A program made the position numbers and the translations under genes. Shown here one piece after another: positions 173 to 20,233 of a stretch of DNA of 36,702 nucleotides. Origin of the DNA: Oceanicola sp. S124 (GTDB lineage Bacteria; Pseudomonadota; Alphaproteobacteria; Rhodobacterales; Rhodobacteraceae); contig NZ_AFPM01000149.1 in the NCBI RefSeq assembly GCF_000220565.1, positions 1 to 36,702 on the forward strand. The letters run 5' to 3'. The notes under the pieces were generated by a model, which did no database searches, was not told the DNA's origin, and worked only from the letters and a program-made list of their open reading frames with translations. How positions within the stretch are numbered: the stretch's first letter is position 1; every line of letters starts with the position of its first letter.

Positions 173-1246
173 TCAGCCCGCGTCGGTGTCCCTGTCCCGC
201 GCGGCCCAGCCGGCCGCGAAGGGCAGCAGGGCGACGATCAGGAAGACCCTCAGCACGTGATGCGCGGCCACCATGGCCGGGTCGATGCCAAGTGCCAGGG
301 CGACAACGCCCAGCTCGGGCGCTCCGCCGGGCAGGTAGGCCAGGAACAGCGGTGCCACCGGCGCGTCGATCATCGGCGCCAGGGCCATCGCCCCGGCAAG
401 AGAGCCGAGGGCCAGCGCGATGCCGACCCCGGCCGCGATGCCGCCGTCCCGGGCGATCTGGCGCAGGGTGTAGCTGGCGAAACGCGCGCCCACGGATCCT
501 CCGATGATGATCTGCGCCGCGGCCGAGAGCAGCGGCGGCACATGCACCGTCAGCACGCCGGTCATGTGCAGCGCGGCAGAGGCAAAGAGCGGCAGCAGCA
601 GTTGCGCCGAGGGGAAGCGGAAGCGCTGACCCAGCCACCAGCAGGCCAGGGCGACCAGCGCCATGGCGCCATGGCGCAGCGGGTCCAGCGGCTCGGCCTC
701 GGTGAAGCTGGCGCGGTTGGCCTCGGCCAGGTCGATGCCCGAGATCATCTGGATCAGGATCGGTGCGGTGATCAGCAGCACCACGATGCGGGCCGTGTGG
801 CAGAGCACGACGCGGTTGACCTCGGTCTTGTGCTCTTCGGCCAGCATCGAGACCACCGACAGCCCGCCGGGCATGGCGGCGAAGAGGGCGGTCATCCGGT
901 CCATCCGGCCCCAGCGTTTAAACAGCCAGTAGGCGCCGAGGCAGAACACCAGCGACAGCAGCGCCATGACGATCAGGCTGGGGATCCAGCTATGGGCGCG
1001 GACCACCACATCATGGGTGAAGCCGGTGCCCAGCATGGTGCCGATGGCGATCATCGCATAGCCGCGCCAGGCCGGCGGCAGCTTCGGCTGGAAGCTGGTG
1101 GCCTGGGCCAGCAGGGCATTGGCGAACATCGCCCCCAGGACCCAGGGCAGCGGCAGTTTGAGGAAGAAGAACAGGCACCCGCCCCCGGCACCGACGGCCA
1201 GTGTCATCAGGCCGCGCAGCGCCGGGGAAGAGATCGTCATGGGCAT
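173..1246 (-). CDS. AbrB-family integral membrane protein
   Basis: This 357-residue protein is almost entirely hydrophobic. It matches the AbrB/COG3180 membrane family (often mislabelled 'AbrB transcriptional regulator' or 'ammonia monooxygenase'), which has two internally similar halves. Both halves are visible: an N-terminal unit with KLPLPWVLGAM and MPGGLSVVSMLAEE, and a C-terminal unit with FPSAQLLLPL and LPGGAPELGVVALAL. The paired PGG motifs are typical. About ten membrane segments are expected in the inner membrane. It starts 4 bp after the tctA stop, so it is the last gene of the tctC-tctB-tctA operon. The molecular function of the family is not established. Its place here suggests an accessory role in transport or export of the same organic acids. 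A second in-frame ATG lies two codons downstream. Confidence 0.88.
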   Translation of the reverse strand: MPMTISSPALRGLMTLAVGAGGGCLFFFLKLPLPWVLGAMFANALLAQATSFQPKLPPAWRGYAMIAIGTMLGTGFTHDVVVRAHSWIPSLIVMALLSLVFCLGAYWLFKRWGRMDRMTALFAAMPGGLSVVSMLAEEHKTEVNRVVLCHTARIVVLLITAPILIQMISGIDLAEANRASFTEAEPLDPLRHGAMALVALACWWLGQRFRFPSAQLLLPLFASAALHMTGVLTVHVPPLLSAAAQIIIGGSVGARFASYTLRQIARDGGIAAGVGIALALGSLAGAMALAPMIDAPVAPLFLAYLPGGAPELGVVALALGIDPAMVAAHHVLRVFLIVALLPFAAGWAARDRDTDAG

Positions 1247-1250
1247 CGGG

Positions 1251-2759
1251 TCAGGCCTCTGTGGTGCGGCGGCGGCGCATGGCCTTCAGCAGGGGTGCGC
1301 CGACCAGGACCAGCAGCATCACCGCGAAGAGGACCAGGGCGATCGGACGCTCGAGCATGTAGCGCAGCGGGTTGCCGCCCGAGATCTGCATGGTGCGCAC
1401 CAGTTCGCCTTCCATCATGCGGCCCAGCAGGAGGCCGATCACGGTGGCCGCCACAGGGTAATTGTTGCGGCGCATCAGCCAGCCGAGCGCGGCGAAGCCC
1501 GCCACGGTCAGCGGTCCGGCGATGGTGCCGGTGATGCCGTAGCCTCCCCAGGCGCACATCGCAAGGACCGAGGGCACCAGGTAGGACAGCGGCACCCTCA
1601 CGACCAGCCCGAGCAGGCGCAGCGACAGCAGGCCCAGCACCGCCAGCAGCACCACCTGGCCGAGGTTGCCCAGGATGATCGAGTAGACGATGTCGGTCTG
1701 GTTGCGGATGAAGCTGGGCCCGCCGATGATGTTGTGGAACGAGAAGGCGGCCAGCAGCACCGCCGTCGCCGCGCCACCCGGAATGCCGAGTGCCAGCAAC
1801 GCCGTCATCGAGCCGCCCTCGGAGGAGGAGTTGGCGCTTTCCGCCGCCACCACGCCCTCGGGCGCGCCCTTGCCGAAGCGTTCGGGGGTCTTCGAGGTCC
1901 GCTTGGCCTCGCCGTATGACACCAGGTTCGCAACCGAGGAGCCGACGCCCGGGATCGCCCCGATCACCGCCCCGAGAAGCGAACCGCGCACCAACACGCC
2001 GGGGTACTTGAAGGTCTCGCCGGCGCCCTTCAGGATCCGCCCGAAGGAGATGTCGCGCTGGTCCTCGTTGCGCACCAGGTAGGTGCCCCCGCGCAGGCGC
2101 AGCAGTTCGGAGGCGGCGAAGATACCGATCATCGCCGGCACCACCGGCAGGCCGTCGATCAGGTAGGGCATCCCCACCGAGGTCCGCATGACGCCGGTCG
2201 TCGACATGCCGATCTGGCTCAGCATCAGGCCGAAGAAGCCGGCCAGCAGGCCCTTGGACAGGGCGCTGTCGTTCAGCGTAGCAATCAGCGTCAGGCCCCA
2301 GAGCACGACGACGACCATCTCGAGCGGGCCGATCTTCAGCACGAAGGCGGCCAGCGGCTGGATCAGCAGCATCAGCAGCATGTAGCCGACGAAGGCGCCG
2401 ACGACCGAAGCCGCCAGCCCGAGGCCGAGCGCCTCGTTGTGCTTGCCCTGGCGCGCCATCGGGTAGCCGTCGAAGGCCGTGGCGATGGAGGAGGACGAGC
2501 CGGGGATGTTCATCAGGATCGCCGTCACCCCGCCGCCATAGGCGCCGCCGGTGAAGATCGAGGTCAGGAACAGCATGGCTTGCAGGAAGTCCATGCCGAA
2601 GGTCACCGGCAGGAAGACCGCCATGGCCATCGAGATCTGAAGACCCGGGATCGAGCCGAAGACCAGCCCGATCATCAGCCCGGGAATGACCCAGAGCCAG
2701 GGGGTGAAGCTGGAGAACAGCAGGTCCAGCGCCTGCGAGAGGGCGAATTGGTCGATCAT
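1251..2759 (-). CDS. tctA: Tripartite tricarboxylate transporter, large permease subunit TctA
   Basis: At 502 residues this is the usual length for TctA, the 12-helix subunit of the TTT secondary transporter family. It works with TctB and the periplasmic binding protein TctC to take up citrate-like tri- or dicarboxylates. Diagnostic segments include FGSIPGLQISMAMAVFLP near the N-terminus, MNIPGSSSSIATAFDGYP around residue 85, and IPGVGSSVANLVSYGEAKR around residue 270, all rich in Gly/Pro helix breaks as in the family. ATG at 2759 begins one base after the tctB stop, indicating translational coupling. The gene is transcribed leftward from the tctC promoter. The substrate cannot be read from the sequence. 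The divergent PrpF and lyase genes suggest a branched carboxylate. Confidence 0.95.
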   Translation of the reverse strand: MIDQFALSQALDLLFSSFTPWLWVIPGLMIGLVFGSIPGLQISMAMAVFLPVTFGMDFLQAMLFLTSIFTGGAYGGGVTAILMNIPGSSSSIATAFDGYPMARQGKHNEALGLGLAASVVGAFVGYMLLMLLIQPLAAFVLKIGPLEMVVVVLWGLTLIATLNDSALSKGLLAGFFGLMLSQIGMSTTGVMRTSVGMPYLIDGLPVVPAMIGIFAASELLRLRGGTYLVRNEDQRDISFGRILKGAGETFKYPGVLVRGSLLGAVIGAIPGVGSSVANLVSYGEAKRTSKTPERFGKGAPEGVVAAESANSSSEGGSMTALLALGIPGGAATAVLLAAFSFHNIIGGPSFIRNQTDIVYSIILGNLGQVVLLAVLGLLSLRLLGLVVRVPLSYLVPSVLAMCAWGGYGITGTIAGPLTVAGFAALGWLMRRNNYPVAATVIGLLLGRMMEGELVRTMQISGGNPLRYMLERPIALVLFAVMLLVLVGAPLLKAMRRRRTTEA

Positions 2760-2760
2760 C

Positions 2761-3219
2761 TCAGAGCACCAGCGTCAGCATGGGGTAGGGGAAGAGGCTG
2801 CCGAAGCCGTAGACCAGCAGCGCGGTGAAGGCCGCGGCGAAGAGGGGTGGTTGCCACCAGCCCTTGCCGCCGCTCATCACCACCCCGGCCCAGACGAAGA
2901 GGAAGGTGGCGAGGTCGAAGCCGATGTGGGTCAGCGCGTAGCAGAAGACACCGAAACCGGCGAGCAGCAGCATGTCGCCCCAGATGCCGGGATCGCGGGT
3001 TTCTTCCTCGGCATCCTCGGCGGCTTCGGGGGCGGGTTTCAGCAGGGTCGAGGCGATCAGCAGCACCGACAACAGCGCGATGACAGCCGCGACGGGGGCC
3101 GTGACGATCAGGTTCTCCATGCTGGCCCGCGCGTCGACCGCGCTCCAGGTGATGAAGCCGGACACGGCCAGGATGATGCCGATCAGCGCGGCGTGGGTGG
3201 CGTGGAATTTGCCTGTCAC
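2761..3219 (-). CDS. tctB: Tripartite tricarboxylate transporter, small permease subunit TctB
   Basis: This is a 152-residue membrane protein with about four hydrophobic segments, matching the small, poorly conserved TctB subunit of TTT transporters. I place the start at GTG 3219, because GGGGGAGG sits about 8 bases upstream of it. An ATG farther out at 3273 is in frame but has no ribosome binding site and would add a hydrophilic 18-residue extension unlike the family. The acidic segment AAEDAEEETRD near the middle lies in the loop between helices. The gene follows tctC after a 132 bp gap containing two stem-loops and is coupled to tctA by a 1-base spacing. Confidence 0.88.
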   Translation of the reverse strand: MTGKFHATHAALIGIILAVSGFITWSAVDARASMENLIVTAPVAAVIALLSVLLIASTLLKPAPEAAEDAEEETRDPGIWGDMLLLAGFGVFCYALTHIGFDLATFLFVWAGVVMSGGKGWWQPPLFAAAFTALLVYGFGSLFPYPMLTLVL

Positions 3220-3255
3220 CTCGTGACCTCCCCCAGAATTGGTTGCAAATGAAAG

Positions 3256-3334
3256 GGGCCGCCTCTCCGTCACCCCGCGAAGGGCGGGACAGGCGGCCCG
3301 AATTCCGGACGAGGGCGCATGGACGCCCCCGTCG
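3256..3334 (-). terminator. Two stem-loops in the tctC-tctB gap (likely attenuator)
   Basis: Going with transcription, the first stem-loop lies just after the tctC stop: GGGCG (3313-3317) pairs with CGCCC (3324-3328), extended by GACG/CGTC. The second pairs GGGCCGCCT (3256-3264) with AGGCGGCCC (3291-3299) and is followed on the minus strand by CTTTCATTT. In this family the binding protein is needed in excess, and stem-loops between the binding-protein and permease genes commonly lower downstream expression. That role is inferred here. Confidence 0.55.
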
Positions 3335-3351
3335 TCGCGTCTAGCGCAATC

Positions 3352-4344
3352 CTACTCAGCCGAAAACCGCTTCAGGATCTCGAAGTTGGACAGGATGATC
3401 TCGGTGGTCTTCTCCGGCCCGAGCCATTCGGCGCCCATGTCCTGGGCTTCCAGGGAGGCGGTGAATTCCTCGTCCATCATCACCTTGTGGTAGGCGTCGA
3501 CCAGTTCCTGGAAGGCCTCGGGGTGCTTTTCCTTGAAGGTCGCATGGGCGGCCAGGCCGCGCATCGAGCCCGCAAGGGTCACCACCGGCTCGTGGCCCGC
3601 GGCGACCAGCGCCTCGTCCAGGGTCGGAGCATCCCAGTCAGCCGAGCGCTCGTCCGCGGCATAGGCCAGCGGGCGGATGTACTCGGCGATCGACAGGGTG
3701 CCGTCGGCGGCGAGGACGGTCATGTCGACCTGGCCACCGGCCACGGCGGTACGGGCCGCGCCGCCAGATTCGTAGGTCACCACGTTGACCGCGTCATCGG
3801 TCAGGCCGAAGGCTTCCAGCGCCAGGCTGAGGTTGATCGCGCCCGACGAGTTCGGCACCACCGAGACGCTCAGCTGGCCGGGGTTTTCCTTGGCCGCGGC
3901 CATGAAGTCGGCCAGCGACTCGTAGGGGGTCTCGGCGTTGACGGCGAAGATGTCGAAGTCGTTCCACTGGCCGTTGATGAAGGCGAAGTCCTCGAGCGTG
4001 TAGTCCGCATCGTAGTTCAGGATCGCGTTCGACACGTAGGGGTGGATCGAGGTCGCCAGGAAGTAGCTGCCGTCATCGGGCATGTTCATGAAGTAGGTGT
4101 GGCCGACGTGGCCGCCGCCGCCCTGCTGGTTGATCACGGTGATCGGGGTGTCCAGCTCTTGCTGGAGGCGCTGCGCCAGGGCACGCGCAGTGCGGTCCGC
4201 CGAGCCGCCCGGCCCGAGGGCCACGACGAAGGTGATCTGGCGCGGGGGCCAGTTCTCGGCAGCCGAAACGGCCAGCGGCGAAACGGCGGCGGTCAGCACA
4301 GCGGCCAGGGTGGCGGCGGAAAAGGCGCGTTTGGTGAGATTCAT
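3352..4344 (-). CDS. tctC: Tripartite tricarboxylate transporter, periplasmic substrate-binding protein TctC
   Basis: This 330-residue protein starts with a clear Sec signal peptide (basic MNLTKR, hydrophobic core, cleavage after VSAAE or nearby). It continues with the hallmark Bug/TctC opening WPPRQITFVVALGPGGSADRT, whose GGSADRTAR loop contacts substrate carboxylates in the family. It captures an organic acid in the periplasm and delivers it to TctAB. ATG 4344 has a strong GGGAGGA four bases upstream. It is the first gene of the leftward operon and diverges from the GntR regulator across a 206 bp region holding operator-like repeats. Bug proteins vary widely in ligand, so the substrate is unknown. 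Confidence 0.94.
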   Translation of the reverse strand: MNLTKRAFSAATLAAVLTAAVSPLAVSAAENWPPRQITFVVALGPGGSADRTARALAQRLQQELDTPITVINQQGGGGHVGHTYFMNMPDDGSYFLATSIHPYVSNAILNYDADYTLEDFAFINGQWNDFDIFAVNAETPYESLADFMAAAKENPGQLSVSVVPNSSGAINLSLALEAFGLTDDAVNVVTYESGGAARTAVAGGQVDMTVLAADGTLSIAEYIRPLAYAADERSADWDAPTLDEALVAAGHEPVVTLAGSMRGLAAHATFKEKHPEAFQELVDAYHKVMMDEEFTASLEAQDMGAEWLGPEKTTEIILSNFEILKRFSAE

Positions 4345-4384
4345 TGAGTCCTCCCCTCATGTCTCGGGTCTTGTCGCGGATGAA

Positions 4385-4397
4385 ATTGTAGCACAAT
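4385..4397. promoter_or_regulatory. Candidate GntR/FCD operator ATTGTAGCACAAT
   Basis: A perfect 13-bp inverted repeat, ATTGT-AGC-ACAAT, lies 40 bp upstream of tctC in the divergent region. GntR regulators of the FCD class commonly bind short palindromes of the TNGT-N3-ACNA type, which this fits exactly. On the minus strand it contains TACAAT, a good -10 hexamer for tctC, so a repressor bound here would block the transporter promoter. A related TTGT-CA-ACAA sits at 4551-4560, at the regulator's own start. Confidence 0.55.
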
Positions 4398-4436
4398 CCG
4401 CTTGACGGTTGAGACTTACGCCCGGCGGAGGATTTC

Positions 4437-4462
4437 TGTCAAGTCGCCAAATCTCGTTGACA
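4437..4462. promoter_or_regulatory. Back-to-back TTGACA boxes in the tctC/GntR divergent region
   Basis: TGTCAA (4437-4442) and TTGACA (4457-4462) form an inverted repeat with a 14-base spacer, giving a perfect -35 hexamer facing each direction. The minus-strand box has GTAAGT 17 bases downstream as a modest -10. The plus-strand box has no good -10 at standard spacing (an AT-rich ATATAAATTT lies closer). The pair could be divergent promoters or a second palindromic operator. Confidence 0.4.
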
Positions 4463-4550
4463 ATTACCATATAAATTTGGTTCTTCTGCCGAAAGTGCTG
4501 GTAAGGTGTGCGCGAATGACGTCGCGTTTCGCAGGGCGGAGGTCGGAATA

Positions 4551-5240
4551 TTGTCAACAAAAACCGATGAATCGCGTGGGGTTGCGGCGGAACGCGTCGC
4601 CCTGGCCCTGCAAGAGGAGATCCTGTCGGGCAAGCTTGCTCCGGGGTCTCGCCTGGGCGAGGTGGCGCTGGCTGATCGGTATGATGTCAGCCGCGGGCCT
4701 GTGCGCTCGGCGCTGAACCAGCTGGCCGAGTCGGGATTAGTGTCGATCGTGCCGAACAGCGGCGCCCGGGTGCGCGAGCTGGGCCGCGACGATGCCCGCG
4801 CGCTCTACGAGGTCCGCGCCGCGCTGGAGGCCGAGGCCGCCCGGCTGGCCGCCGGCCATGCCGATGCGGCGACCGGCGACGTGCTGGGGCAGTTGCTGGG
4901 GCAGCATGCGGACGAGGTCTCGGCCCATCCCCAGGGGGCCTACCTTCAGGGGCCGGGGGATCGCGACTTCCACATGGTCATCGCGCGGATGTCGGGCAAT
5001 CCGATCATCCTGCGGTATCTCACCCGCGAGCTTTATCCGCAGCTGTCGCTGCTGCGGGTGAAGCATCGCAATGTCACCGGGCGCGGCCAGGCCGCCCTGC
5101 TGGAACACCGCCGCATTGCCGAGGCCATCGCCTGCGGTGACGGCGAGGTCGCGGCGCTGCTGATGCGCCGTCATATCCGGGCAAGCTGGGACGCGCTGGA
5201 AGCGCAGCTTGCCGCCACCCCCGAGGAGCAAAAGTTGTGA
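4551..5240 (+). CDS. GntR-family transcriptional regulator, FCD (FadR-type) subgroup
   Basis: An N-terminal winged helix (ALQEEILSGKLAPGSRLGEV, then LADRYDVSRGPVRSALNQL) is followed by an FCD ligand-binding domain. That domain carries the Asp/His metal-site pattern: DFH near the middle, then EHRRIAEAI and MRRHI. FCD regulators sense carboxylates and usually repress the transport and catabolic genes beside them. I favour a TTG start at 4551, with GGAGG eight bases upstream. A GTG at 4506 is in frame but lacks a ribosome binding site. The stop overlaps the start of the PrpF gene in GTGA, so the regulator is co-translated with the enzymes it probably controls. The perfect palindrome at 4385-4397 is the likely operator. 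Confidence 0.9.
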   Translation: MSTKTDESRGVAAERVALALQEEILSGKLAPGSRLGEVALADRYDVSRGPVRSALNQLAESGLVSIVPNSGARVRELGRDDARALYEVRAALEAEAARLAAGHADAATGDVLGQLLGQHADEVSAHPQGAYLQGPGDRDFHMVIARMSGNPIILRYLTRELYPQLSLLRVKHRNVTGRGQAALLEHRRIAEAIACGDGEVAALLMRRHIRASWDALEAQLAATPEEQKL

Positions 5241-6403
5241 GTCAGATCGCCGTTCCCGCCGCCTTCATGCGTGGCGGCACCTCCAAGGCCCTTGTGCTGC
5301 ATCGCCGTGACCTGCCCGGGGACGAGACCCTCTGGCCAGCGCTCTTTGCCGCGATGCTCGGCTCTCCCGATCCGAACCAGCGGCAGCTGAACGGCATGGG
5401 CGGGGGCATCTCCTCGCTGTCGAAGATCTGCATCATCGGCCCGTCGACGCGGCCTGACGCGGATATCGACTACACCTTCGCGCAGGTCGGGGTGATCGAC
5501 GACAGTGTCGATTTCTCGGGCAACTGCGGCAACATGAGCTCGGCCATGGGGCCTTTCGCCTATGACGAGGGGCTGGTCGCGGGCCCGCGCGACGGTGAGG
5601 CGGTGGTGCGCATCCACAATACCAATTCCGGCAAGGTGATCGCCGCGAGCTTCCCCGTTTCGGGGGGCGTGGCCGAGGTCGAGGGCGACCTGCAGATCCC
5701 CGGGGTCGAGGGCACCGGCGCGCCGGTGGTGCTGGATTTCCTCGATCCGACCGACACCAACGGCAACGGCGCCCTGCCGGCGGGACCGGTGGTCAGCCGC
5801 CTGACCCTGTCGACCGGCGAGGAGGTCGAGGTGACGATGATCGATGCCGCCGTGCCGGCGGTCTTCGTCGAGGCGTCCCAGGTCGGCGGGGATACCCGCA
5901 GCCACCCGGCCGACATCGACGCCGATCGCGCCTTGATGGCGCGGCTGGAAGATATCCGTTGCCAGGCCTCGGTGGCCATGGGGCTGACCCCGGATCTCGG
6001 GGCGGCGGCGGCGCGGATCGCCACGCCGAAGGTCGCCATGGTGGGCCGTCCGCAGTCCTACCAGGACCTGTCCTCGGCACCCCATGCCCCGGAAAGCCAC
6101 GACCTGCAGATCCGCATGATCTCGGCCGGGCAGGCGCATCGCGCGGTGCCGGTGACCGGGGCGCTGGCGCTGGCCTGCGCCGCCGCCATCGAGGGATCCG
6201 TGGTGCAGCGCCAGATCGCCGAAGGCGGCGATCCGCAGACCCTGCGCATCGGCACCCCCTCGGGCATCGTCTCGGTCGGCGCCTCCCGCGACCTGGCCAC
6301 CGGAGACATCACCGCCGCGCGGATCCTGCGCACGCAGCGCCGCCTTATGGACGGCCGCGTCCATGTCCCACGCAGCACCCTTTCCAAGACCACAGAAGAA
6401 TGA
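5237..6403 (+). CDS. PrpF-family isomerase (methylitaconate / 4-oxalomesaconate / aconitate isomerase type)
   Basis: The 388-residue protein has the two signatures of the PrpF family (diaminopimelate-epimerase fold): AFMRGGTSKALVL at the N-terminus and DFSGNCGNMSSAMGPFA around residue 95, which carries an active-site Cys. Characterised members shift a double bond or proton in branched unsaturated acids: PrpF (2-methylaconitate), methylitaconate delta-isomerase of nicotinate fermenters, and 4-oxalomesaconate tautomerase GalD. It starts with GTG overlapping the regulator's stop and is followed 13 bp later by a lyase. No aconitase/AcnD, PrpC or galA-C gene is present, so the classical methylcitrate or gallate roles are not supported by context. 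A role in a TctABC-imported branched acid pathway is inferred. Confidence 0.9.
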   Translation: MSQIAVPAAFMRGGTSKALVLHRRDLPGDETLWPALFAAMLGSPDPNQRQLNGMGGGISSLSKICIIGPSTRPDADIDYTFAQVGVIDDSVDFSGNCGNMSSAMGPFAYDEGLVAGPRDGEAVVRIHNTNSGKVIAASFPVSGGVAEVEGDLQIPGVEGTGAPVVLDFLDPTDTNGNGALPAGPVVSRLTLSTGEEVEVTMIDAAVPAVFVEASQVGGDTRSHPADIDADRALMARLEDIRCQASVAMGLTPDLGAAAARIATPKVAMVGRPQSYQDLSSAPHAPESHDLQIRMISAGQAHRAVPVTGALALACAAAIEGSVVQRQIAEGGDPQTLRIGTPSGIVSVGASRDLATGDITAARILRTQRRLMDGRVHVPRSTLSKTTEE

Positions 6404-6416
6404 GCGAGGCACCCCA

Positions 6417-7289
6417 ATGCTGAATCACGAAGTCAACAAACGGTTCAAGGATCGCATCGCAAGCGGTGGCGCCCTGCTGCTGCCCGGCGCCGCCAATGCC
6501 CTGGCCGCACGGGTGATCGAGGACCTGGGCTTCGAGGCGGTCTACCTGTCGGGAGCGGGGCTGACCAATACCTACCTCGGGATGCCCGACCTGGCCTTCA
6601 TCTCGCTGCCCGAGATCGCCCAGCATACGGCGACGATCCGCGATGCCACCGACCTGCCGATCGTGGTCGACGCCGACAACGGTTTCGGCAACGGGCTGAA
6701 CGTGCGTCACACCATCCGCACGCTGGAGCGCGCCGGTGCCTCGGCGATCCAGCTCGAGGACCAGAAGACGCCCAAGCGCTGCGGCCACTTCTCGGGCAAG
6801 GAGGTCGTCTCGCTCGAGGAGGCGCGCTCGCGGATCAAGGCTGCCGTGGATGCCCGCCAGGACGAGAACACGATGATCGTCGCCCGCACCGATGCCGCGG
6901 CCACCGACGGCCTGTCCGAGGCCCTGGATCGTGCCGCGGCCTTCATCGAGGACGGTGCCGACATCACCTTCGTCGAGGCACCGCAGACTGTCGAGGACCT
7001 GCGCGCCATCCCCGCCGCACTGCAGGGGACGCCGCAGCTGGTCAACCTGGTGGTGGGCGGCAAGACCCCGATCCTCTCGGTCGACGAGTTTACCCGGATG
7101 GGCTTCTCGCTGGTGCTCTATGCCAATGTCGCGCTGCAATCGGCGCTGTTCGGCATGCAGACCGCGCTGACCCAGCTGAAGGAGCAGGGCCAGATGGACG
7201 AGGACGGCCCGCTGGCCGGCTTCATGGAGCGCCAGCGGGTGGTCCGCAAGGACCTGTTCGACGAGTTGGACAAGCGCTACGCCTACTGA
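6417..7289 (+). CDS. Isocitrate lyase / PEP mutase superfamily lyase (methylisocitrate or 2,3-dimethylmalate lyase type)
   Basis: This is a 290-residue TIM-barrel enzyme of the ICL/PEPM superfamily. Visible motifs are the metal-binding VVDADNGFGN, the EDQ of AIQLEDQKTPKRCGH, and the catalytic-loop Cys in KRCGH, which marks C-C lyases rather than phosphonomutases. Methylisocitrate lyase (PrpB) and 2,3-dimethylmalate lyase share this loop. Both split a branched malate-like acid into pyruvate and succinate or propionate. ATG 6417 is chosen because GAGGC precedes it. An upstream in-frame ATG at 6363 would lie inside the prpF-like gene. It is the last gene of the regulator-isomerase-lyase operon, followed by a terminator. 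The exact substrate cannot be decided from the sequence. Confidence 0.88.
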   Translation: MLNHEVNKRFKDRIASGGALLLPGAANALAARVIEDLGFEAVYLSGAGLTNTYLGMPDLAFISLPEIAQHTATIRDATDLPIVVDADNGFGNGLNVRHTIRTLERAGASAIQLEDQKTPKRCGHFSGKEVVSLEEARSRIKAAVDARQDENTMIVARTDAAATDGLSEALDRAAAFIEDGADITFVEAPQTVEDLRAIPAALQGTPQLVNLVVGGKTPILSVDEFTRMGFSLVLYANVALQSALFGMQTALTQLKEQGQMDEDGPLAGFMERQRVVRKDLFDELDKRYAY

Positions 7290-7314: not shown

Positions 7315-7344
7315 GGGCGGTCCTTGCGGGGGCCGCCCTTTCTC
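7315..7344 (+). terminator. Rho-independent-like terminator after the lyase gene
   Basis: GGGCGG (7315-7320) pairs with CCGCCC (7333-7338), and the run TTTCT follows. It lies 26 bp after the lyase stop and directly abuts the stop of the convergent Lrp gene. Confidence 0.7.
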
Positions 7345-7813
7345 AGTCCAGCGCGCGCAGGTCCAGCGGGCGATCTTCAATCAGGGCTTCCATGGCGAAG
7401 AAGCCGGTCACCGCCGCGAGATCGAAATTGGTGATCAGGCGCTGGTAGAAATTGTCATAGTGGGCGATGCCCCGCGTCACCACGCGGGCAAGGTAATCCC
7501 AGTCGCCGCCGATACGGTAGAAGTCGCGCACCTCGGGCAGGGCCTCGACATGCTTGCGGAAGCTGTCGGCCCAGTCCTTGGAGTGGTGCCGGGTGCGCAT
7601 CATCACGAAGACGGTCAGGTCGTAGCCCAGGTCGGCCAGGTTGATCTCGGTCCGGGTGCCCAGGATCAGCCCGTCGGCGGTCAGCCGTTTCAGCCGACGC
7701 CAGCAGGCGTTCTGCGACAGGCCCGCGCGTTCGGCCAGATCACGCTGCGAGAGCGAGCCATCCTTTTGCAGGATGCTGAGAATTCTGAGGTCAATCCTGT
7801 CGACTTTTGCCAT
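7343..7813 (-). CDS. Lrp/AsnC-family transcriptional regulator
   Basis: The 156-residue protein has the standard Lrp layout. The N-terminal helix-turn-helix begins VDRIDLRILSILQKDGSLSQRDLAERAGLSQNACWRRLKRL in segments typical of the family. It is followed by a RAM/ligand-sensing domain with VFVMMRTRHH and FYRIGGDWDYLARVV. The start is placed at ATG 7813, where Lrp homology begins and GAGG/GAAG lies upstream. The longer in-frame start at 7879 would add residues unlike the family. It is divergent from the class V aminotransferase across 112 bp, so it probably controls that gene and the ABC transporter behind it in response to an amino acid or related amine. An ATGCG-N8-CGCAT repeat lies between them. 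Confidence 0.9.
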   Translation of the reverse strand: MAKVDRIDLRILSILQKDGSLSQRDLAERAGLSQNACWRRLKRLTADGLILGTRTEINLADLGYDLTVFVMMRTRHHSKDWADSFRKHVEALPEVRDFYRIGGDWDYLARVVTRGIAHYDNFYQRLITNFDLAAVTGFFAMEALIEDRPLDLRALD

Positions 7814-7835
7814 TTCTTCGATCCTCTGACCCAAT

Positions 7836-7853
7836 ATGCGCCGAAAATCGCAT
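7836..7853. promoter_or_regulatory. Candidate Lrp-type operator (ATGCG-N8-CGCAT)
   Basis: A perfect inverted repeat, ATGCG (7836-7840) and CGCAT (7849-7853), lies 23 bp upstream of the Lrp-family start in the divergent spacer. Spacing and position suit an autoregulatory operator, but the arms are only 5 bp. Confidence 0.35.
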
Positions 7854-7925
7854 GAACGAGGTGAGGTATCAACGGGCAAGTGGGGCTAGGCTGCGCGATG
7901 TTCCTTTCCTTTCACAGGTGCCCAG

Positions 7926-9362
7926 ATGACAGCCCTCGCTCCCTCCGTGTTTTCCGATTTCCTGGCCGGGCTGAAGGCCGGGGGCCCCGGGGCGCTGCGG
8001 GCCGGGCTGATCGGCAAGCAGGCGATGGTCGAGGGCCCCTTCGGCGCGCATCCCATGGTCTATGCCGACTACGTCGCCTCGGGCCGCGCCCTGCGCCAGG
8101 TCGAGGACTTCGTGATGGAGAAGGTGCTGCCCTACTACGCCAACTCCCATACCGAGGCCTCGTTCTGCGGTGCCACCATGACCCGGATGCGGCGCGAGGC
8201 GCGGCAGGTCATCGCGCGGGCCTGCGGGGCGGGGCCCGACCATGCGGTGATCTTTGCCGGATCGGGCGCCACGGCAGGGCTGAACCGGCTGGTGTCGCTG
8301 TTCGGCGCCGACACGGGCCGGGTGCGCGTGCTGATCGGCCCCTATGAGCATCACTCCAACATCCTGCCCTGGCGCGAGAGCGGCGCCGAGGTGGTCGAGC
8401 TGCCCGAGGCGCCCTGCGGCGGCATCGACACCGAGGCCCTGCAACAGGCGCTGGCAGAGAGCGCCGGGTTCGACCGGGTGATCTGTTCCTTCTCGGCCAT
8501 GTCCAATGTCACCGGCATCATCGCCGATGTCGCCGGGGTGACGCGGATCGCCAAGCAGGCCGGCGCGCGGGTGATCTGGGATTACGCGGGCGGGGCGCCC
8601 TACCTGCCGGTCGACATGCAGCCCGCTCCGGGCGTCGAGATCGACGCCATCTGCGTCTCTCCGCACAAGTTCATCGGCGGCCCGGGGGCCTCGGGCCTGC
8701 TGCTGCTGCGCCGCGACTCGGTGGTGCGGCAGGCGCCGACCTGGCCCGGTGGCGGCACCGTCCGCTTCGTCTCACCCGAAGGGCAGGACTACAGCGGCAG
8801 CCTTGAAGCGCGCGAGGAGGCGGGCACGCCCAATGTCGTCGGAGATATCCGCGCGGCGCTGGTCTTCCTGGTGAAAGAGGCCATCGGGCTGGACCACCTG
8901 CAGGCCCGCAATGCCGAGCTGACCGCCCGGGCCTTCCAGGCCTGGGGCGATTGCCCGCAGATTGACCTGCTGGGGCAGGGCGAGGCGCCGCGGGTGCCGG
9001 TCTTCTCGTTCCGCATCCGCGACGGGCAGGGCGGCTTCGTGCATCAGCAGCTGGTCACCCGGATGCTCAGCGACTTGCATGGCATCCAGGCGCGCGGCGG
9101 CTGCGCCTGCGCCGGGCCCTACGTGCACCGCCTGCTGGGCATCGACGCCGCGACCTCCGAGCGGCTGCGCGCCGCGATCCTCGCCGGTGACGAGGTGCAG
9201 AAGCCCGGGTTCACCCGGCTCAACCTGTCGGTGCTGATGGAGGACGAGACGGTCGATTTCATTCTCGACGCGGTTCGTGCGCTGGCGCAGGAGGCCCCTG
9301 CGCTGGCGCCGCGCTACGAAGTCGACACGGCCCATGCCATTTTCGCTCCGCGTGTGGCATAA
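7926..9362 (+). CDS. Class V aminotransferase-fold PLP enzyme (cysteine-desulfurase-like)
   Basis: This 478-residue, fold-type I PLP enzyme resembles the NifS/SufS branch. YADYVASGR opens the domain. NSHTEASFCG and GSGATAGLNRL mark the phosphate-binding region, YEHHSNILPWRE carries the His that stacks on PLP, and ICVSPHKFIGGPGASG holds the Schiff-base Lys. A Cys-rich loop (RGGCACAGPY) sits where cysteine desulfurases keep the catalytic Cys, so a Cys is available near the active site. At 478 residues it is longer than IscS/SufS (about 400). No SUF or ISC scaffold genes are nearby, so bulk Fe-S assembly is unlikely. Its place between an Lrp regulator and a dipeptide-type ABC importer suggests it acts on the imported amino compound (lyase, desulfurase or transaminase). 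The specific reaction is not known. Confidence 0.85.
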   Translation: MTALAPSVFSDFLAGLKAGGPGALRAGLIGKQAMVEGPFGAHPMVYADYVASGRALRQVEDFVMEKVLPYYANSHTEASFCGATMTRMRREARQVIARACGAGPDHAVIFAGSGATAGLNRLVSLFGADTGRVRVLIGPYEHHSNILPWRESGAEVVELPEAPCGGIDTEALQQALAESAGFDRVICSFSAMSNVTGIIADVAGVTRIAKQAGARVIWDYAGGAPYLPVDMQPAPGVEIDAICVSPHKFIGGPGASGLLLLRRDSVVRQAPTWPGGGTVRFVSPEGQDYSGSLEAREEAGTPNVVGDIRAALVFLVKEAIGLDHLQARNAELTARAFQAWGDCPQIDLLGQGEAPRVPVFSFRIRDGQGGFVHQQLVTRMLSDLHGIQARGGCACAGPYVHRLLGIDAATSERLRAAILAGDEVQKPGFTRLNLSVLMEDETVDFILDAVRALAQEAPALAPRYEVDTAHAIFAPRVA

Positions 9363-9640: not shown

Positions 9641-11164
9641 ATGATTTCCAAGACCGAAATTTCCCGCCGCAGCGCGCGCGGGCGCGCCGTCCTCGCGGCC
9701 CTGACGGCTTCCTCCGTGCTGGCCCTCTCCTCTGCCGCCGCCCTGGCGCAGGACTTCGACCCGCAGGCGGTCATCAATATCGGTTCGCTCTACGAGCCGC
9801 AGAACCTGGACAACACCCAGGGCGCGGGCCAGGGCATCAACGAAGCCTTCAACGGCAATGTCTACGAAGGTCTCTTCGTGCTGACCGACGCGGGCGAGGT
9901 CGAGCCCAAGCTGGTCGACAGCTACGAGATCAGCGAAGACGGGCTGACCTACACCTTCACCCTGAAAGAGGGCGTGACCTTCCACTCGGGCGACCCGCTG
10001 ACCGCTGCCGACGTCAAGAGCTCGATCGAGCGCGTGACCGCCGAGAATTCCGCCAGTTCGCGCAAGCGCACCCTGGCCGTGATCACGGGTATCGAGACCC
10101 CGGACGATCAGACCGTCGTGGTGACCCTCTCGGCGCCGTCGATCTCGCTGCCCTACAACCTGTCCTACGTCTGGATCGTCAATGACGCGGCAGGCGACAT
10201 CAGCTCGGGCGAAGACGGCACCGGCCCCTACGTGCTGCAGGAATGGCGTCGCGGTTCGGCCCTGGCCATGGTGCCCTTCGACGGCTACTGGGGCGAAGAG
10301 CCCACCAACGGCGGCGTGATGTTCCAGTACTTCACCGATGCCACGGCGCAGAACAACGCGCTACTGACCGGCGCCGTCGACATCATCACCTCGGTGCAGA
10401 GCCCCGATGCCCTGTCGCTGTTCACCGACAACCCGGACTTCACGGTCTCGGAAGGTGCCTCGACCACGAAGGAGCTGATGGCCTACAACGACCGCGTCGC
10501 GCCCTTCGACAATGCCACCGTGCGTGCGGCCCTGGCCCGCGCCGTGGACAACGAGAAGCTGCTGCAGGCGATCTGGGGCGACTACGGCACCCTCATCGGG
10601 TCCTTCGTGCCGCCGACCGATCCCTGGTACGAGGACCTGACCGGCGTCAATGCCTACGATCCCGAAAGCGCCCAGCAGATGCTGGCCGAAGCGGGCTATG
10701 CGGACGGGTTCTCGTTCACCTTGGACACGCCGGACTATGATCCGCACCCCGTGGTGGCGCAGTTCCTGCAGAACGAGCTGGCCAAGGTCGGTGTCGAGGT
10801 GAAGATCAACATCATCACCGCCAACGAATGGTACACCAAGATCTACAAGGCGCATGACTTCGATGCGACCCTGCAGGAGCACGTGAACCACCGCGACATC
10901 GTCTTCTACGGCAACCCGGACTTCTACTGGGGCTATGACAACCCCGAGGTCACCCGCCTGATCACCGAGTCCGAAAGCGTCTCTTCGATGGACGAGCAGA
11001 CCGAGATGCTGGCCGAGGCCAACCGGATCATCGCCGAGGATGCCGCCAGCATGTGGCTCTACCTGTACCCGCAGATCGTCGTCTCGACCTCGAATGTCTC
11101 GGGCTATCCGCTGAACGGGCTGAACTCGCAGTTCTTCGTCTCGGACATCAAGAAGGCCGACTGA
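9641..11164 (+). CDS. ABC transporter substrate-binding protein, peptide/nickel (SBP family 5) type
   Basis: The 507-residue protein has a long signal peptide (basic TEISRRSARGRA, then LAALTASSVLALSSAAALAQ, cleaved near AQD). The mature protein is of the DppA/OppA class: ALYEPQNLDNTQG-like entry, YTFTLKEGVTFHSGDPLTAADV (the family's most conserved block, residues about 105-125), and a late DWYxKIYKAHDFDAT-like segment. It binds a peptide or other bulky organic solute in the periplasm. ATG 9641 is chosen at the signal peptide, and an upstream in-frame start at 9500 is not supported. It is followed by a stem-loop and then two permeases and two ATPases in the same direction. Cluster-C proteins bind varied ligands, so the substrate is open. 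Confidence 0.93.
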   Translation: MISKTEISRRSARGRAVLAALTASSVLALSSAAALAQDFDPQAVINIGSLYEPQNLDNTQGAGQGINEAFNGNVYEGLFVLTDAGEVEPKLVDSYEISEDGLTYTFTLKEGVTFHSGDPLTAADVKSSIERVTAENSASSRKRTLAVITGIETPDDQTVVVTLSAPSISLPYNLSYVWIVNDAAGDISSGEDGTGPYVLQEWRRGSALAMVPFDGYWGEEPTNGGVMFQYFTDATAQNNALLTGAVDIITSVQSPDALSLFTDNPDFTVSEGASTTKELMAYNDRVAPFDNATVRAALARAVDNEKLLQAIWGDYGTLIGSFVPPTDPWYEDLTGVNAYDPESAQQMLAEAGYADGFSFTLDTPDYDPHPVVAQFLQNELAKVGVEVKINIITANEWYTKIYKAHDFDATLQEHVNHRDIVFYGNPDFYWGYDNPEVTRLITESESVSSMDEQTEMLAEANRIIAEDAASMWLYLYPQIVVSTSNVSGYPLNGLNSQFFVSDIKKAD

Positions 11165-11176
11165 GGCCACTGACCG

Positions 11177-11208
11177 GGGGCCGGGCGGAGACGTCCGGCC
11201 CCTCTCTT
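11177..11208 (+). terminator. Stem-loop between binding-protein and permease genes
   Basis: GGGGCCGG (11177-11184) is exactly complementary to CCGGCCCC (11195-11202), followed by TCTCTT. Placed 12 bp after the binding-protein stop, it probably acts as a partial terminator or mRNA stabiliser that keeps the binding protein in excess over the membrane subunits. Confidence 0.6.
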
Positions 11209-11227
11209 CGCGCATACGGGAACCCCA

Positions 11228-12184
11228 ATGCTGAGATACATGGCACGGCGGCTGCTCATCCTGCTGCTGTCTCTCTTCGTCGCGGCCATCGTGCTCTTCG
11301 TGCTGCTGCGCCTCCTGCCGGGGGATCCGGCCAATGCCCTCGTGGGGGTCGGTGCCACGCCGGAGCAGATCGCGGCCGCGCAGGCGCAGATCGGCTCCGA
11401 CCAGCCGCTGGCGGTGCAGTTCGTCACCTACCTCGGCGACCTGGCGCGCTTCGATCTCGGCAAATCCTTCGTCTCGCGTGCGCCGGTGATCGAGGAAATC
11501 TCGCGCCGTCTTTCCGTTACCCTGCCGCTGACCCTGGCGGCTTTCCTGCTGTCGATGCTGATCGCCATTCCGCTGGGCATCCTGGCGGCGGTCAAGTCCG
11601 AGCGCTGGTACGGGCTGCTGCTGTCCGTCGTCTCGCAGGTCGGCATCGCCGTGCCGGTGTTCTGGCTGGGGGTGCTGCTGGTCTATGTCTTCGCGCTGAA
11701 CCTGCGCCTGCTGCCCTCGGGGGGCTTCCCGCTGCGCGGCTACGGGGATCCGGCCCGCGCCGTGACCTCGATGGTGCTGCCGGTGCTGACCATCGCCCTG
11801 ATCATGTCGGCCTCGCTTATGCGCTACGTGCGCGCCGCGACGCTTGAAGTGCTGGGCTCGGACTTCCTGCGCACCGCCCGGGCGCTCGGCGAAAGCCGCA
11901 CCGGCGCGCTTATGCGCCACGGGCTGCGCAATGCCGCGGTGCCGGTGATCTCGGTCCTGGGAATCGAGCTGTCGACCACCTTCCTCGGCGCCGTGGTGGT
12001 CGAGCAGGTCTTCTCGCTGCCCGGCATGGGCTCGATGCTGCTGCTGGGGATCCAGCAGCGTGACTACCCGAATATCCAGGGCGTGCTGATCATCTCGACC
12101 CTGCTGGTGCTGCTGACCGGCTTCCTTGCCGACCTGCTGCAACGGGTCCTCGACCCGCGCCTGCGCAAGGAGGCCCGCCGATGA
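11228..12184 (+). CDS. ABC transporter permease, DppB/OppB type
   Basis: This 318-residue membrane subunit of a dipeptide/oligopeptide/nickel-class importer carries the family's N-terminal helix (MLRYMARRLLILLLSLF) and the LRLLPGDPANALVG block that marks DppB-type permeases. The cytoplasmic EAA loop (FLRTARALGESRTGALMRHGLRNA) couples to the ATPases. Six membrane helices are expected. The stop overlaps the next permease start in ATGA. The gene order SBP-permease-permease-ATPase-ATPase matches the dpp arrangement. Confidence 0.94.
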   Translation: MLRYMARRLLILLLSLFVAAIVLFVLLRLLPGDPANALVGVGATPEQIAAAQAQIGSDQPLAVQFVTYLGDLARFDLGKSFVSRAPVIEEISRRLSVTLPLTLAAFLLSMLIAIPLGILAAVKSERWYGLLLSVVSQVGIAVPVFWLGVLLVYVFALNLRLLPSGGFPLRGYGDPARAVTSMVLPVLTIALIMSASLMRYVRAATLEVLGSDFLRTARALGESRTGALMRHGLRNAAVPVISVLGIELSTTFLGAVVVEQVFSLPGMGSMLLLGIQQRDYPNIQGVLIISTLLVLLTGFLADLLQRVLDPRLRKEARR

Positions 12185-13044
12185 GCGCCGAGCAGACCGA
12201 TAACTTGACCGAAACGTCGGGCCGCCGCCGGAGCCGCGGCAATGCCACCTACTGGCTTGGCCTCCTGCTGGTCGGGGTGATCGTGCTGGCCGGGCTGATC
12301 TCCTTCGTCTGGACGCCCTATGCGCTGTCGGACATGGTCGGCGGGCGGCTTGAGGCGCCGAGCCTGCAGCACTGGGCCGGCACTGACCGGCTGGGGCGGG
12401 ACCTGTTCACCCAGCTTATGATCGGGGCGCGGATCGCGCTGATCGTCGGCTGCGGCGCCGTGGTGATCGGCGCGGCGATCGGCGTGACCACCGGCCTGCT
12501 GGCCGCCTTCGCGACCCGCTTCCTCGACGATGCGCTGGCGGCGGTCTTCGACATCCTCATCGCCTTCCCGACCCTGCTGATCGCCATGCTGGTGGTCGCG
12601 GCGCGGGAAGAGGCCAGCCTGGGCACCGCGATCCTCGCGCTCGGCATCGGCCTGTCGCCCATCGTCGGGCGGATCACCCGGATCCTGACCAAGCAGGTGC
12701 TGGGACAGGACTACATCACCGCCGCGCGGGTCTCGGGCACCTCCTGGGGGGCCATCGTCTTCTGGCACATCCTGCCCAATATCGCCCCCTTCCTCGGGGT
12801 GAACCTGGCGCTGCAATTCGGGCTGGCGGTCATGGCCGAGGCCTCGCTGTCCTACCTCGGCCTCGGCGCGCCGCCGCCCAATGCCTCCTGGGGACGGATG
12901 CTGCAAGAGGCGCAGGGCACCGTCTACACCGCCCCCTGGGGCGCCATCCTGCCGGGCCTGGCGCTGTTCGCGCTGGTGATCGGGATCAACCTGCTGGCGG
13001 ACGGTCTGCGCGACCGCTTCGACCCGACGAAGGGGGCCGCGTGA
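12181..13044 (+). CDS. ABC transporter permease, DppC/OppC type
   Basis: The 287-residue second membrane subunit has a cytoplasmic N-terminus (RRRSRGN), a first helix, then the DppC-specific HWAGTDRLGRDLFTQLMIGAR motif around residues 60-80. An EAA loop (YITAARVSGTSWGAIVFWHILPN) follows, and it ends LLADGLRDRFDPT, a standard DppC C-terminus. It overlaps the preceding permease by four bases and the following ATPase by one base (TGATG), so the three are translationally coupled. Confidence 0.94.
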   Translation: MSAEQTDNLTETSGRRRSRGNATYWLGLLLVGVIVLAGLISFVWTPYALSDMVGGRLEAPSLQHWAGTDRLGRDLFTQLMIGARIALIVGCGAVVIGAAIGVTTGLLAAFATRFLDDALAAVFDILIAFPTLLIAMLVVAAREEASLGTAILALGIGLSPIVGRITRILTKQVLGQDYITAARVSGTSWGAIVFWHILPNIAPFLGVNLALQFGLAVMAEASLSYLGLGAPPPNASWGRMLQEAQGTVYTAPWGAILPGLALFALVIGINLLADGLRDRFDPTKGAA

Positions 13045-13853
13045 TGAGCGATCTGCTGACCGTCCGCGACCTGCGGCTGTCGACGCCGGACAAGGTGCTG
13101 GTGCAGGACCTGTCGTTTTCCATCGCCGCCGGCGAACGCTTCGGCCTGATCGGCGAGAGCGGCTCGGGCAAGTCGCTGACCTCGCTCGCCGTGACCGGGC
13201 TGCTGGCGCCGGGACTGCGCGCCGAGGGCTCGGTCGAGCTGGCCGGCACCCAGGTCATCGGCGCGCCCGAGCGGCGCCTGGTGGGGCTGCGCGGCAACGC
13301 CGTGGCCACCGTCTTCCAGGAGCCGCTGACGGCGCTCGACCCGCTGATGCCCCTTGGCCGCCAGATCGCCGGGCCGGTGCGCCGCCGCCTGAAGCGCGAG
13401 GGCGCAGAAACCTCGGGCGCCGCGGTCCGGGCCGAGGTCATGGCGCTGCTCGAGCAGGTCCGCATGCCGGATCCCGCGCGCCTGATCGGGGCCTATCCGC
13501 ACGAGGTGTCCGGCGGGCAGCGCCAGCGCGTCGCCATCGCCATGGCGCTGGCCTGCCGCCCGCGCCTGCTGATCGCGGACGAGCCGACGACCGCGCTGGA
13601 TGTCACCACCCAGGCCGAGATCGTCCGCCTGATCACCTCCCTGGTCGACGAGCTGGGCATCGCGCTGCTGTTCATCAGCCACGATCTTGCCGTGGTCGGC
13701 CAGGTGGCCGAGCGGGTCATGGTCATGCGCCATGGCCGCGCCGTCGAAAGCGGCCCGGCGCTGCAGGTGCTGACGCAGCCGCAGGACGATTACACCCGCA
13801 ATCTCGTCGCCGCCGCCCGGCGCTTCGACGCCGCGCTGGAGGGGCAGGGATGA
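13044..13853 (+). CDS. ABC transporter ATP-binding protein, DppD type
   Basis: This 269-residue ATPase has Walker [15 protein letters not shown] near residue 35, Q-loop [11 protein letters not shown], signature [16 protein letters not shown] and Walker [13 protein letters not shown], all intact. The H-loop His is in FISHDLAVV. It is shorter than classical DppD (about 325-330 residues) and lacks the C-terminal Cys-rich oligopeptide/4Fe-4S tail. ATG 13044 overlaps the preceding stop. A GTG one codon earlier is an alternative. It pairs with the next ATPase to power the importer. Confidence 0.93.
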
Positions 13854-14602
13854 GCCTGATGACGGTCGAGAATGTCGGTTTCTCCTACGGGACCGGACGC
13901 AAGGTGCTGGAGGATATCTCGTTCAGCGTGCCGAAGGGCGCCAATGTCGGGCTGGTCGGGGAAAGCGGCTCTGGCAAGTCGACGCTGCTGCGTCTGTTGC
14001 TGGGGCTGGACAGTCCGCAATCCGGGCGCATCCTGTTCGACGGCGCGCCGCTTCAGGCCCGCGACCGCGCCTACATGCGCGGCTACCGCAAGCGAGTGCA
14101 GGCGGTGTTCCAGGATCCCTATTCCTCGCTCAACCCCGCGCATCGCATCCGCCGCATCGTGACCGAGCCGCTGCGCTCGCTGAAAGTGCCCGGCGATCAC
14201 CTGGCGATGGCGCGCGAGGCGATCACCAGCGTCGGGCTGACCGAGGACACGCTTGAGCGTTTCCCGCACCAGTTCTCGGGTGGGCAGCGCCAGCGCATCG
14301 CCATCGCCCGCGCCATCGTCGCCCGCCCCGAGCTGGTGCTGGCGGACGAGGCGGTCAGCGCGCTGGACCTGTCGACCCGGGTGCGCGTGGTGGACCTGTT
14401 CCGCGAGATTTCCGAGCGGATGACGATGATCTTCGTCTCGCACGACATGGGCGTCGTCGCGGCGCTCTGTGATCAGCTGATCGTGCTGGACCGCGGCCGC
14501 ATCGTCGAGGCCGGAGAGACCGCCGCCATCCTGCGCGACCCGCAGCATTCCTACACCAAAAGCCTTCTGGCCAGCATCCCGCGGATGCCGGAAGGCGCCT
14601 GA
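13850..14602 (+). CDS. ABC transporter ATP-binding protein, DppF type
   Basis: The second ATPase has 250 residues with Walker [18 protein letters not shown]-loop VFQDPYSSLNP, signature FSGGQRQRIAIARAI, Walker B LVLADEAVSALDLST and H-loop FVSHDMGVV. In the Walker B region DEA replaces the more usual DEP, but the catalytic Glu is kept. The C-terminal oligopeptide extension is short. It overlaps the DppD-type gene by four bases and completes the five-gene importer. Confidence 0.93.
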   Translation: MSLMTVENVGFSYGTGRKVLEDISFSVPKGANVGLVGESGSGKSTLLRLLLGLDSPQSGRILFDGAPLQARDRAYMRGYRKRVQAVFQDPYSSLNPAHRIRRIVTEPLRSLKVPGDHLAMAREAITSVGLTEDTLERFPHQFSGGQRQRIAIARAIVARPELVLADEAVSALDLSTRVRVVDLFREISERMTMIFVSHDMGVVAALCDQLIVLDRGRIVEAGETAAILRDPQHSYTKSLLASIPRMPEGA

Positions 14603-14618
14603 CCGAAGGACAGATCAC

Positions 14619-20232: not shown

Positions 20233-20233
20233 T

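Follow-up and report, generated by a model that had tools for sequence, protein, structure and literature searches.

Which small acid is taken up and broken down by the seven-gene module at the left end of contig NZ_AFPM01000149.1 from the alphaproteobacterium Oceanicola sp. S124? The contig, analysed over its full length of 36,702 nucleotides and here called the window, is one of the 339 contigs of a 4.65-Mb assembly that is 91.7% complete; since the left end of the window is also the end of the contig, synteny can be read only to its right. An earlier sequence-only reading of this DNA had described an AbrB-TctABC importer diverging from a regulator, a PrpF-type isomerase and a carbon–carbon lyase with a KRCGH motif, and had connected the last two with the methylitaconate/2,3-dimethylmalate route of nicotinate fermenters. 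Our own reading, to which we give about an even chance of being right, is that the module serves the coenzyme A (CoA)-free import and catabolism of a branched (2,3-dialkyl) C4-dicarboxylate.

The arrangement itself stands as described. Open reading frames scored with Pfam profiles, all seven above the family cut-offs, place on the minus strand an AbrB-family membrane protein (173-1246; PF05145, duplicated Gneg_AbrB), which is the last gene of the transporter unit, preceded by the large membrane subunit TctA (1251-2759; PF01970, 391.6 bits), the small membrane subunit TctB (2761-3273; PF07331, 42.9 bits against a cut-off of 29.1) and a divergent periplasmic solute-binding protein TctC (3352-4344; PF03401, 45.4 bits against 27), so that the tripartite tricarboxylate transporter set is complete within the module. 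On the plus strand these are faced by a GntR-family regulator with an FCD domain (4551-5240; PF00392 and PF07729), a PrpF-family allylic isomerase (5237-6403; PF04303, 372 bits), which has the equivalents of Lys73 and Cys107 and whose start overlaps the end of gntR (5237 versus 5240), and the KRCGH lyase of the isocitrate lyase/phosphoenolpyruvate (PEP) mutase superfamily (6417-7289), with the signature NLVVGG/LYANVALQ. The more likely starts are, for the lyase, the ATG at 6417, 13 bases past the end of prpF in a frame spanning 6363-7289 and, for gntR, the TTG at 4551 in a frame open from 4506.

The lyase scores 275.6 bits against the PrpB model TIGR02317, under its cut-off of 354.4. The KRCGH motif, by which the sequence-only reading had named the lyase, turned out to be non-discriminating, because methylisocitrate lyase (MICL), that is PrpB, carries it too, as part of one account has it (PMC11982470); as evidence of a dimethylmalate lyase it was therefore rejected. 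Other positions do separate the two groups. All 14 proteins above the TIGR02317 cut-off from 142 genomes of the class, which served as PrpB controls, contain NMTEFG (NxTEFG) together with an Arg at the column of Arg241 in the E. coli numbering, with which the numbering of the window lyase agrees; in their short loci a citrate-synthase-like neighbour was seen seven times and a PrpD-like one five times, and two further matches of the control search, under the PrpB cut-off, lack TEFG. None of 112 lyase rows (29 relatives, 82 from the 80 loci described below, and the window) has TEFG, whilst all 41 rows of the window lyase's clade, and the window itself, have NLV[VI]GG and LYANVALQ, with Gln at the Arg241 column. 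Among structures, the MICLs 3eoo and 9hra have TEFG and the Arg; 3fa3, named dimethylmalate lyase, has NMVEHG and Gly, the oxaloacetate acetylhydrolase 3lye NSVENG and Ala, and the petal death protein 1zlp NMIEGG and Tyr. The residues changed in the window lyase may be those that bind the third carboxylate in PrpB.

A tree built from 58 selected rows, rooted at the midpoint purely for display, shows the same division: at 100/100 support, 17 rows of the MICL type (3eoo, 9hra and 4iqd among them) part from 41 others that comprise the window clade, dimethylmalate lyase, oxaloacetate acetylhydrolase and, on a long branch, the petal death protein PSR132; the last three and the window clade are not united in a single group. 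The catalytic Asp, Asp, Lys, Cys, Gly, His, Arg, Glu and Asn are invariant in 23 chosen rows, with KRCGH present; for assignment as an alkylmalate lyase this set is necessary only, as MICL shares it. An AlphaFold2 model from the same number of rows (pLDDT 93.9) has the same fold as PrpB and the three other enzymes just named.

How far the lyase keeps the same company elsewhere was gauged by a scan of genome contigs seeded with the lyase protein, from which the best 80 of 133 loci (L042-L121) were kept; a single protein-seeded scan of this kind favours close relatives. The lyase's own clade comprises 41 loci (L042-L082), with lyases 68-99% identical to that of the window, and because L076 has no lyase call, counts are out of 40, a neighbourhood being the eight genes on either side of the lyase. 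Genes were called by a home-made codon-usage caller and then clustered, and the counts are of loci, many of them closely related, rather than of independent events. AbrB, TctA, TctC, GntR and PrpF all occur near the lyase in 14 of these loci, one of which adds an aconitase, and a five-gene set that recurs in this way argues that the arrangement of the module is not chance. TctC is found near the lyase in 35 loci (16 with the window's family and 19 with another, without overlap), PrpF in 28, AbrB in 15, an AcnA-type aconitase in ten, a PrpD-like protein in nine and an RraA-like protein in eight; PrpF and the PrpD-like protein never occur together (0 of 40). Neither was called in L066, L068 and L051, the last of which does hold a 70% PrpF match, found by tblastn and missed by the caller.

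The gene next to the lyase on its 5' side encodes PrpF in 19 cases, the PrpD-like protein and an IclR regulator in nine each, GntR in two and another gene in one; where it is IclR, an AcnA-like gene and prpF lie divergent. Five main types of locus can be told apart: A, that of the window (AbrB-TctABC/GntR-PrpF-lyase); B, gammaproteobacterial metagenome-assembled genomes (MAGs), with PrpF-lyase, whose other neighbours (PALP, a urate-oxidase-N domain, a DksA-like protein) look incidental; C, Devosia, Chelativorans and Pelagibacterium (TctCBA-PrpD-like-lyase-GntR); D, of the Roseibium/Labrenzia/Tateyamaria type (TctABC-RraA-PrpF-AcnA-like, divergent from IclR-lyase); and E, two Stappia (TctABC/GntR-lyase). 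The clade is patchy within the family, since among 149 genomes a close lyase was found only in that of the window and in one other (90% identity), the next best matches reaching 52-57%. Two outlying records deserve mention. In L046, named Enemella evansiae (Actinomycetota), TctA, TctB, TctC, GntR, PrpF and lyase are 71-96% identical to those of the window and the PrpF groups with that of Salipiger pallidus, for which reason we suspect a mislabelled or contaminated assembly. In a Chloroflexota (Thermoflexus) MAG (L106:8314-12182) a 41% identical lyase adjoins TctA and TctC matches, which suggests that the pairing of lyase and importer extends past the Proteobacteria.

A pathway of isomerase and lyase calls for a hydratase between them. 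The module contains none, as the sequence-only reading had said, and the possibility that the gene lies just past the left end of the window, as a comparison with locus L042 would allow, found no support, the first 260 bases having no match to an aconitase C-terminus. In L042, a MAG with a 99% identical lyase, an 854-residue AcnA-type aconitase lies on the opposite strand, its end 46 bases from that of AbrB. This protein is above the cut-offs of two AcnA subfamily models, misses that of the AcnA equivalog (825.8 versus 945 bits), is far under that of AcnD (666.9 versus 1419.85) and is about 40% identical to the type-D aconitase. Ten genomes, which account for 10 of the 41 loci, were searched for an extra AcnA-type protein besides AcnA and LeuC. 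Five have it, namely that of L042 and those of type D (L065, L074, L076 and L079); none was seen in L043, L045, L050, L058 and L060, L045 having a second LeuC-sized match instead and L050 an AcnA-type match split over two frames. Some relatives' loci do contain a hydratase of a fitting kind, either AcnA-type or a PrpD-like protein taking the place of PrpF; genes of one sort or the other occur in 19 of the 40. The type-C PrpD-like protein reaches 722 bits against an actinobacterial PrpD model, with a cut-off of 950. As to the host, where a LeuCD- or AcnD-type hydratase had been proposed as the thing to look for, an aconitase-family search returned an AcnA-type protein (contig C122), a LeuC-type protein (C338) and a weak third match (C302), with no second AcnA-type protein; the genome in this respect resembles L043, which has housekeeping enzymes only. 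LeuCD-type hydratase genes adjoin only sister lyases outside the window clade.

The PrpF of the window falls under the cut-offs of both the TIGR02334 equivalog (295.2 versus 440.55 bits) and the oxalomesaconate tautomerase model (280.6 versus 440), and its catalytic Lys (K73) and Cys (C107) are kept in all 36 PrpF rows. The best match in the PDB is 3g7k, named 3-methylitaconate isomerase; identities are 39% to methylitaconate isomerase, 39-41% to the Shewanella (SoPrpF, 39%) and Pseudomonas PrpFs and 37% to the GalD type. The PrpFs of types A/B and those of type D accompany one clade of lyases and make up separate lineages (support 100/100 and 100/99) with 45% identity to each other; a poorly supported node (84/73) puts the PrpFs of methylcitrate-type loci in between. 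There is here a hint that this lyase clade recruited PrpF on more than one occasion, which would support a functional link rather than a particular substrate. As a test of substrate the PrpF tree gave no decision, its branches being long and its deep order unsafe.

Does the host run a methylcitrate cycle in which such a lyase might take part? Within the assembly, citrate synthase II matches above the cut-off for methylcitrate synthase PrpC were absent, as was any MmgE/PrpD match, the degree of completeness leaving both absences short of certain. There is likewise no second KRCGH lyase among the PEP_mutase matches, a search that did not extend to the long isocitrate lyase; the remaining matches are two pieces at contig ends (C207 and C190), and the piece that spans the motif region lacks KRCGH. 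A methylcitrate cycle in this genome was accordingly rejected, and prp genes elsewhere, which the sequence-only reading had named as part of what would tell against it, did not turn up. The window lyase therefore stands outside any detectable methylcitrate cycle, and with methylmalonyl-CoA mutase present, propionyl-CoA would be routed via methylmalonyl-CoA. The one other PrpF of the genome is GalD-type and lies in a separate cluster (L006:8985-14792, contig C127) with PIG-L (GalB-like), RraA-like, glyoxalase-fold dioxygenase and LysR genes, which looks like a set for gallate/protocatechuate 4,5-cleavage.

The scheme that we infer from these genes, their conserved association, the hydratase of some relatives and the lyase signature would run as follows. 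TctC would capture the acid and TctAB, with AbrB, carry it inward; PrpF would interconvert an alkylitaconate and a 2,3-dialkylmaleate by shifting the double bond; hydration of the maleate would give a 2,3-dialkylmalate; and cleavage of this malate by the lyase would yield a short-chain acid together with pyruvate or a somewhat larger 2-oxoacid. The hydration step may fall to the dedicated AcnA-type enzyme in L042 and the Roseibium-type loci and to the PrpD-like protein in those of the Devosia type; in the organism of the window a housekeeping enzyme, AcnA or LeuCD, would probably carry it out. The methylitaconate/dimethylmalate route is the nearest known scheme. Of the earlier proposal, the isomerase, a lyase that is not MICL and an importer for small carboxylates are borne out; methylitaconate is no more than a candidate for the acid, PrpF being unable to choose.

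Several observations weigh against this scheme. No dedicated hydratase was found in the host genome by the aconitase-family search, and 21 of the 40 clade loci have neither an AcnA-like nor a PrpD-like gene. A PrpF adjoining a true PrpB shares 52% identity with that of the window, and this value, set beside the 39% shared by methylitaconate isomerase and SoPrpF, is why the isomerase does not choose the substrate. The type-C PrpD-like proteins are 58-65% identical to PrpDs that adjoin true PrpBs, and the alternation of PrpF with a PrpD-like protein mirrors that of AcnD plus PrpF with PrpD, described in part of a report on the methylcitrate cycle (PMC5690661). In the lyase tree dimethylmalate lyase is not the sister of the window clade, both merely lying outside MICL, and the same being true of oxaloacetate acetylhydrolase and PSR132, "not MICL" is the firmer statement and "dimethylmalate lyase" the weaker. 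A structure search, tried as a test of substrate, ties E. coli MICL, oxaloacetate acetylhydrolase, PSR132 and dimethylmalate lyase at Z 36.2-38.5 and makes no choice. Sister clades linked to ring-opening enzymes keep the Arg at the Arg241 column; the residues behind specificity are called an open question in PMC11982470; and the methylcitrate genes of R. rubrum, in a passage of PMC8471276, include a lyase annotated as dimethylmalate lyase, by annotation only.

It is because of the methylcitrate-like swap, the identity of the PrpD-like proteins and the R. rubrum annotation that we put the dialkyl-diacid reading no higher than even and keep as a rival, though an unlikely one, the view that the module salvages a methylcitrate-type tricarboxylate taken up from outside. 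Here 2-methylcitrate or 2-methylaconitate would enter by TctABC, itself of a tricarboxylate transporter family, undergo dehydration and isomerisation by aconitase and PrpF, or by PrpD, then rehydration, and be cleaved to succinate and pyruvate; the closeness of PrpF and the PrpD-like enzymes to their methylcitrate counterparts speaks for it, as does the fact that the two do not occur together, in the manner of the two forms of that cycle. Against it, the window lyase lacks the Thr, Phe and Arg conserved in all 14 PrpBs, lies under the PrpB cut-off and outside the MICL branch, and the dedicated aconitase of relatives scores as AcnA, not AcnD. Distinctly unlikelier is a C5 version, a CoA-free itaconate catabolism in which itaconate or citraconate would be imported, the two interconverted by PrpF and the product hydrated to citramalate or 3-methylmalate, the lyase then giving pyruvate and acetate or glyoxylate and propionate. 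The chemistry is identical with one methyl fewer, and the gene association of the clade and the lyase tree fit it equally well; itaconate is a common acid of fungi and macrophages, and dicarboxylate lyases of this superfamily take malates of varied substitution. Against it, no residue test separates C5 from C6/C7 substrates, and the pocket keeps Phe and Leu and has Ala for Pro, which may mean that the keto-acid side carries a methyl group or something bigger.

Very improbable, lastly, is a use of trans-aconitate, in which PrpF would make cis-aconitate and aconitase isocitrate, with the lyase as a small isocitrate lyase. The importer is in place, and Shewanella PrpF shows aconitate isomerase activity according to part of the same report (PMC5690661); in this case, however, the lyase would be either superfluous or obliged to accommodate a third carboxylate although the PrpB residues are missing, and nine of the 40 loci have a PrpD-like protein in place of PrpF.

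The dialkyl-diacid reading touches on a wider one, suggested by the sister lyases. Of 15 actinobacterial loci (L087-L100 and L103), 14 (all but L089; an example is L095:9947-12953) have, directly after the lyase, a D-hydantoinase-like protein with its metal ligands HxH, Lys, His, His and Asp intact and an isochorismatase-family protein (c17), a putative amidase, with Asp, Lys and Cys in place; MFS, flavoprotein and MmgE/PrpD genes are often added, and the group may be a cluster for cyclic-imide catabolism. In 13 mostly alphaproteobacterial loci within L104-L121 (for example L104:8206-16701) the genes after the lyase encode Hydantoinase_B, Hydantoinase_A, an isochorismatase-family protein and a flavoprotein, and in 11 of these LeuC/LeuD subunits (HacA and LeuD/DmdB families; DmdAB-type) stand 5' of the lyase. 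The nearest model for the Hydantoinase pair (HyuBA) is caprolactamase, far under cut-off. Many of these clusters lie behind what is probably a branched-chain-type ABC transporter, of which the binding protein was scanned. Taken together, enzymes for opening a ring, for hydration and for malate-type cleavage suggest dialkylmaleimides, and one may speculate that the lyase family is the terminal enzyme of undescribed bacterial pathways for the mineralisation of dialkylmaleimides and dialkylmaleates from chlorophyll and haem debris, the window module importing the hydrolysed diacid, an idea that we consider unlikely. Methyl ethyl maleimide and hematinic acid are listed among the oxidative products of chlorophyll and haem in a study in which hematinic acid was found in leaves and the maleimides were not detected (PMC7318184). 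The Arg at the 241 column of the sister lyases could, speculatively, suit a third carboxylate such as that of hematinic acid. Against the idea, lactams or hydantoins would fit the ring-opening enzymes equally, and the alphaproteobacterial isochorismatase (c15) has no Cys, the expected column being Gly/Val in the consensus, which weakens its candidacy as a half-amidase.

Two operator-like sites bear on how the module might be controlled. The palindrome ATTGTAGCACAAT lies as an exact match between tctC and gntR (4385-4397), and a second site, ATTGTCAACAAA (4550-4561), overlaps the probable TTG start of gntR. With two mismatches permitted the first pattern is not above chance in the window (16 of 100 shuffles reach the count), and the second is rarer, with 0.12 matches expected by chance; of the 17 type-A intergenic regions, all have a site related to the first and 16 have one related to the second, counts that are description rather than a blind test because the patterns were drawn up from the same alignment. 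The GntR protein may govern both divergent units through two ATTGT-N-ACAAT-like sites.

To the right of the module the window holds an Lrp/AsnC regulator divergent from a class V aminotransferase (7343-9362), a pair also found in L042 and at the edge of L115, the aminotransferase being under every listed NCBIfam cysteine desulfurase cut-off (best 147.8 bits versus 475.1); then the genes of a peptide-type ABC transporter (SBP_bac_5 and a pair of ABC ATPases, of which one ends in oligo_HPY), with that of a DUF1684 protein after them (9641-15401); and, on the minus strand, Sel1-repeat, glycosyltransferase and autotransporter beta-domain proteins (15477-20259).

We know of such diacid chemistry only from strict anaerobes that ferment nicotinate, and among the literature matches listed, judged by titles and abstract openings, there is no publication on this module. 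If the dialkyl-diacid reading is correct, an importer-linked version of nicotinate-fermenter chemistry would be scattered through the Alphaproteobacteria and a few gammaproteobacterial MAGs, a natural pool of small branched diacids that are seldom assayed would be indicated, and lyases that score under the methylisocitrate lyase cut-off would acquire a testable function. If the maleimide idea were correct, the sister clusters linked to ring-opening enzymes would open the fate of tetrapyrrole debris to direct test.

How, then, does the module compare with known systems? The nicotinate fermentation of Eubacterium barkeri reportedly employs a methylitaconate isomerase, the dimethylmaleate hydratase DmdAB and a 2,3-dimethylmalate lyase. 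The module, like this route, has a PrpF-family isomerase and a KRCGH lyase that is not MICL, in a comparison that does not include the lyase of E. barkeri, and differs in that the acid would be imported by TctABC rather than made from nicotinate, and in that the hydratase is AcnA-type or PrpD-like in some relatives and absent from the window. With the methylcitrate cycle in its AcnD/PrpF or PrpD form it has in common PrpF plus aconitase, replaceable by a PrpD-like protein, followed by a KRCGH lyase; it differs in a genome with no PrpC above cut-off, a lyase outside the MICL branch, an aconitase in relatives that is AcnA-like and not AcnD, and an importer of its own. GalD, the 4-oxalomesaconate tautomerase of gallate degradation, belongs to the PrpF family and is represented in this very genome in the PIG-L/RraA/dioxygenase cluster, whereas the window PrpF is 37% identical to that GalD-type protein and under the tautomerase family cut-off. 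Finally, PSR132, fungal dimethylmalate lyase and oxaloacetate acetylhydrolase, which are 37, 32 and 31% identical to the window lyase in structure alignments and none of them sister to its clade, resemble it in the hydrophobic residue at the PrpB Thr column, in the lack of Arg at the distal column and in their side of the tree split, whereas the window lyase stands in a bacterial operon with a transporter.

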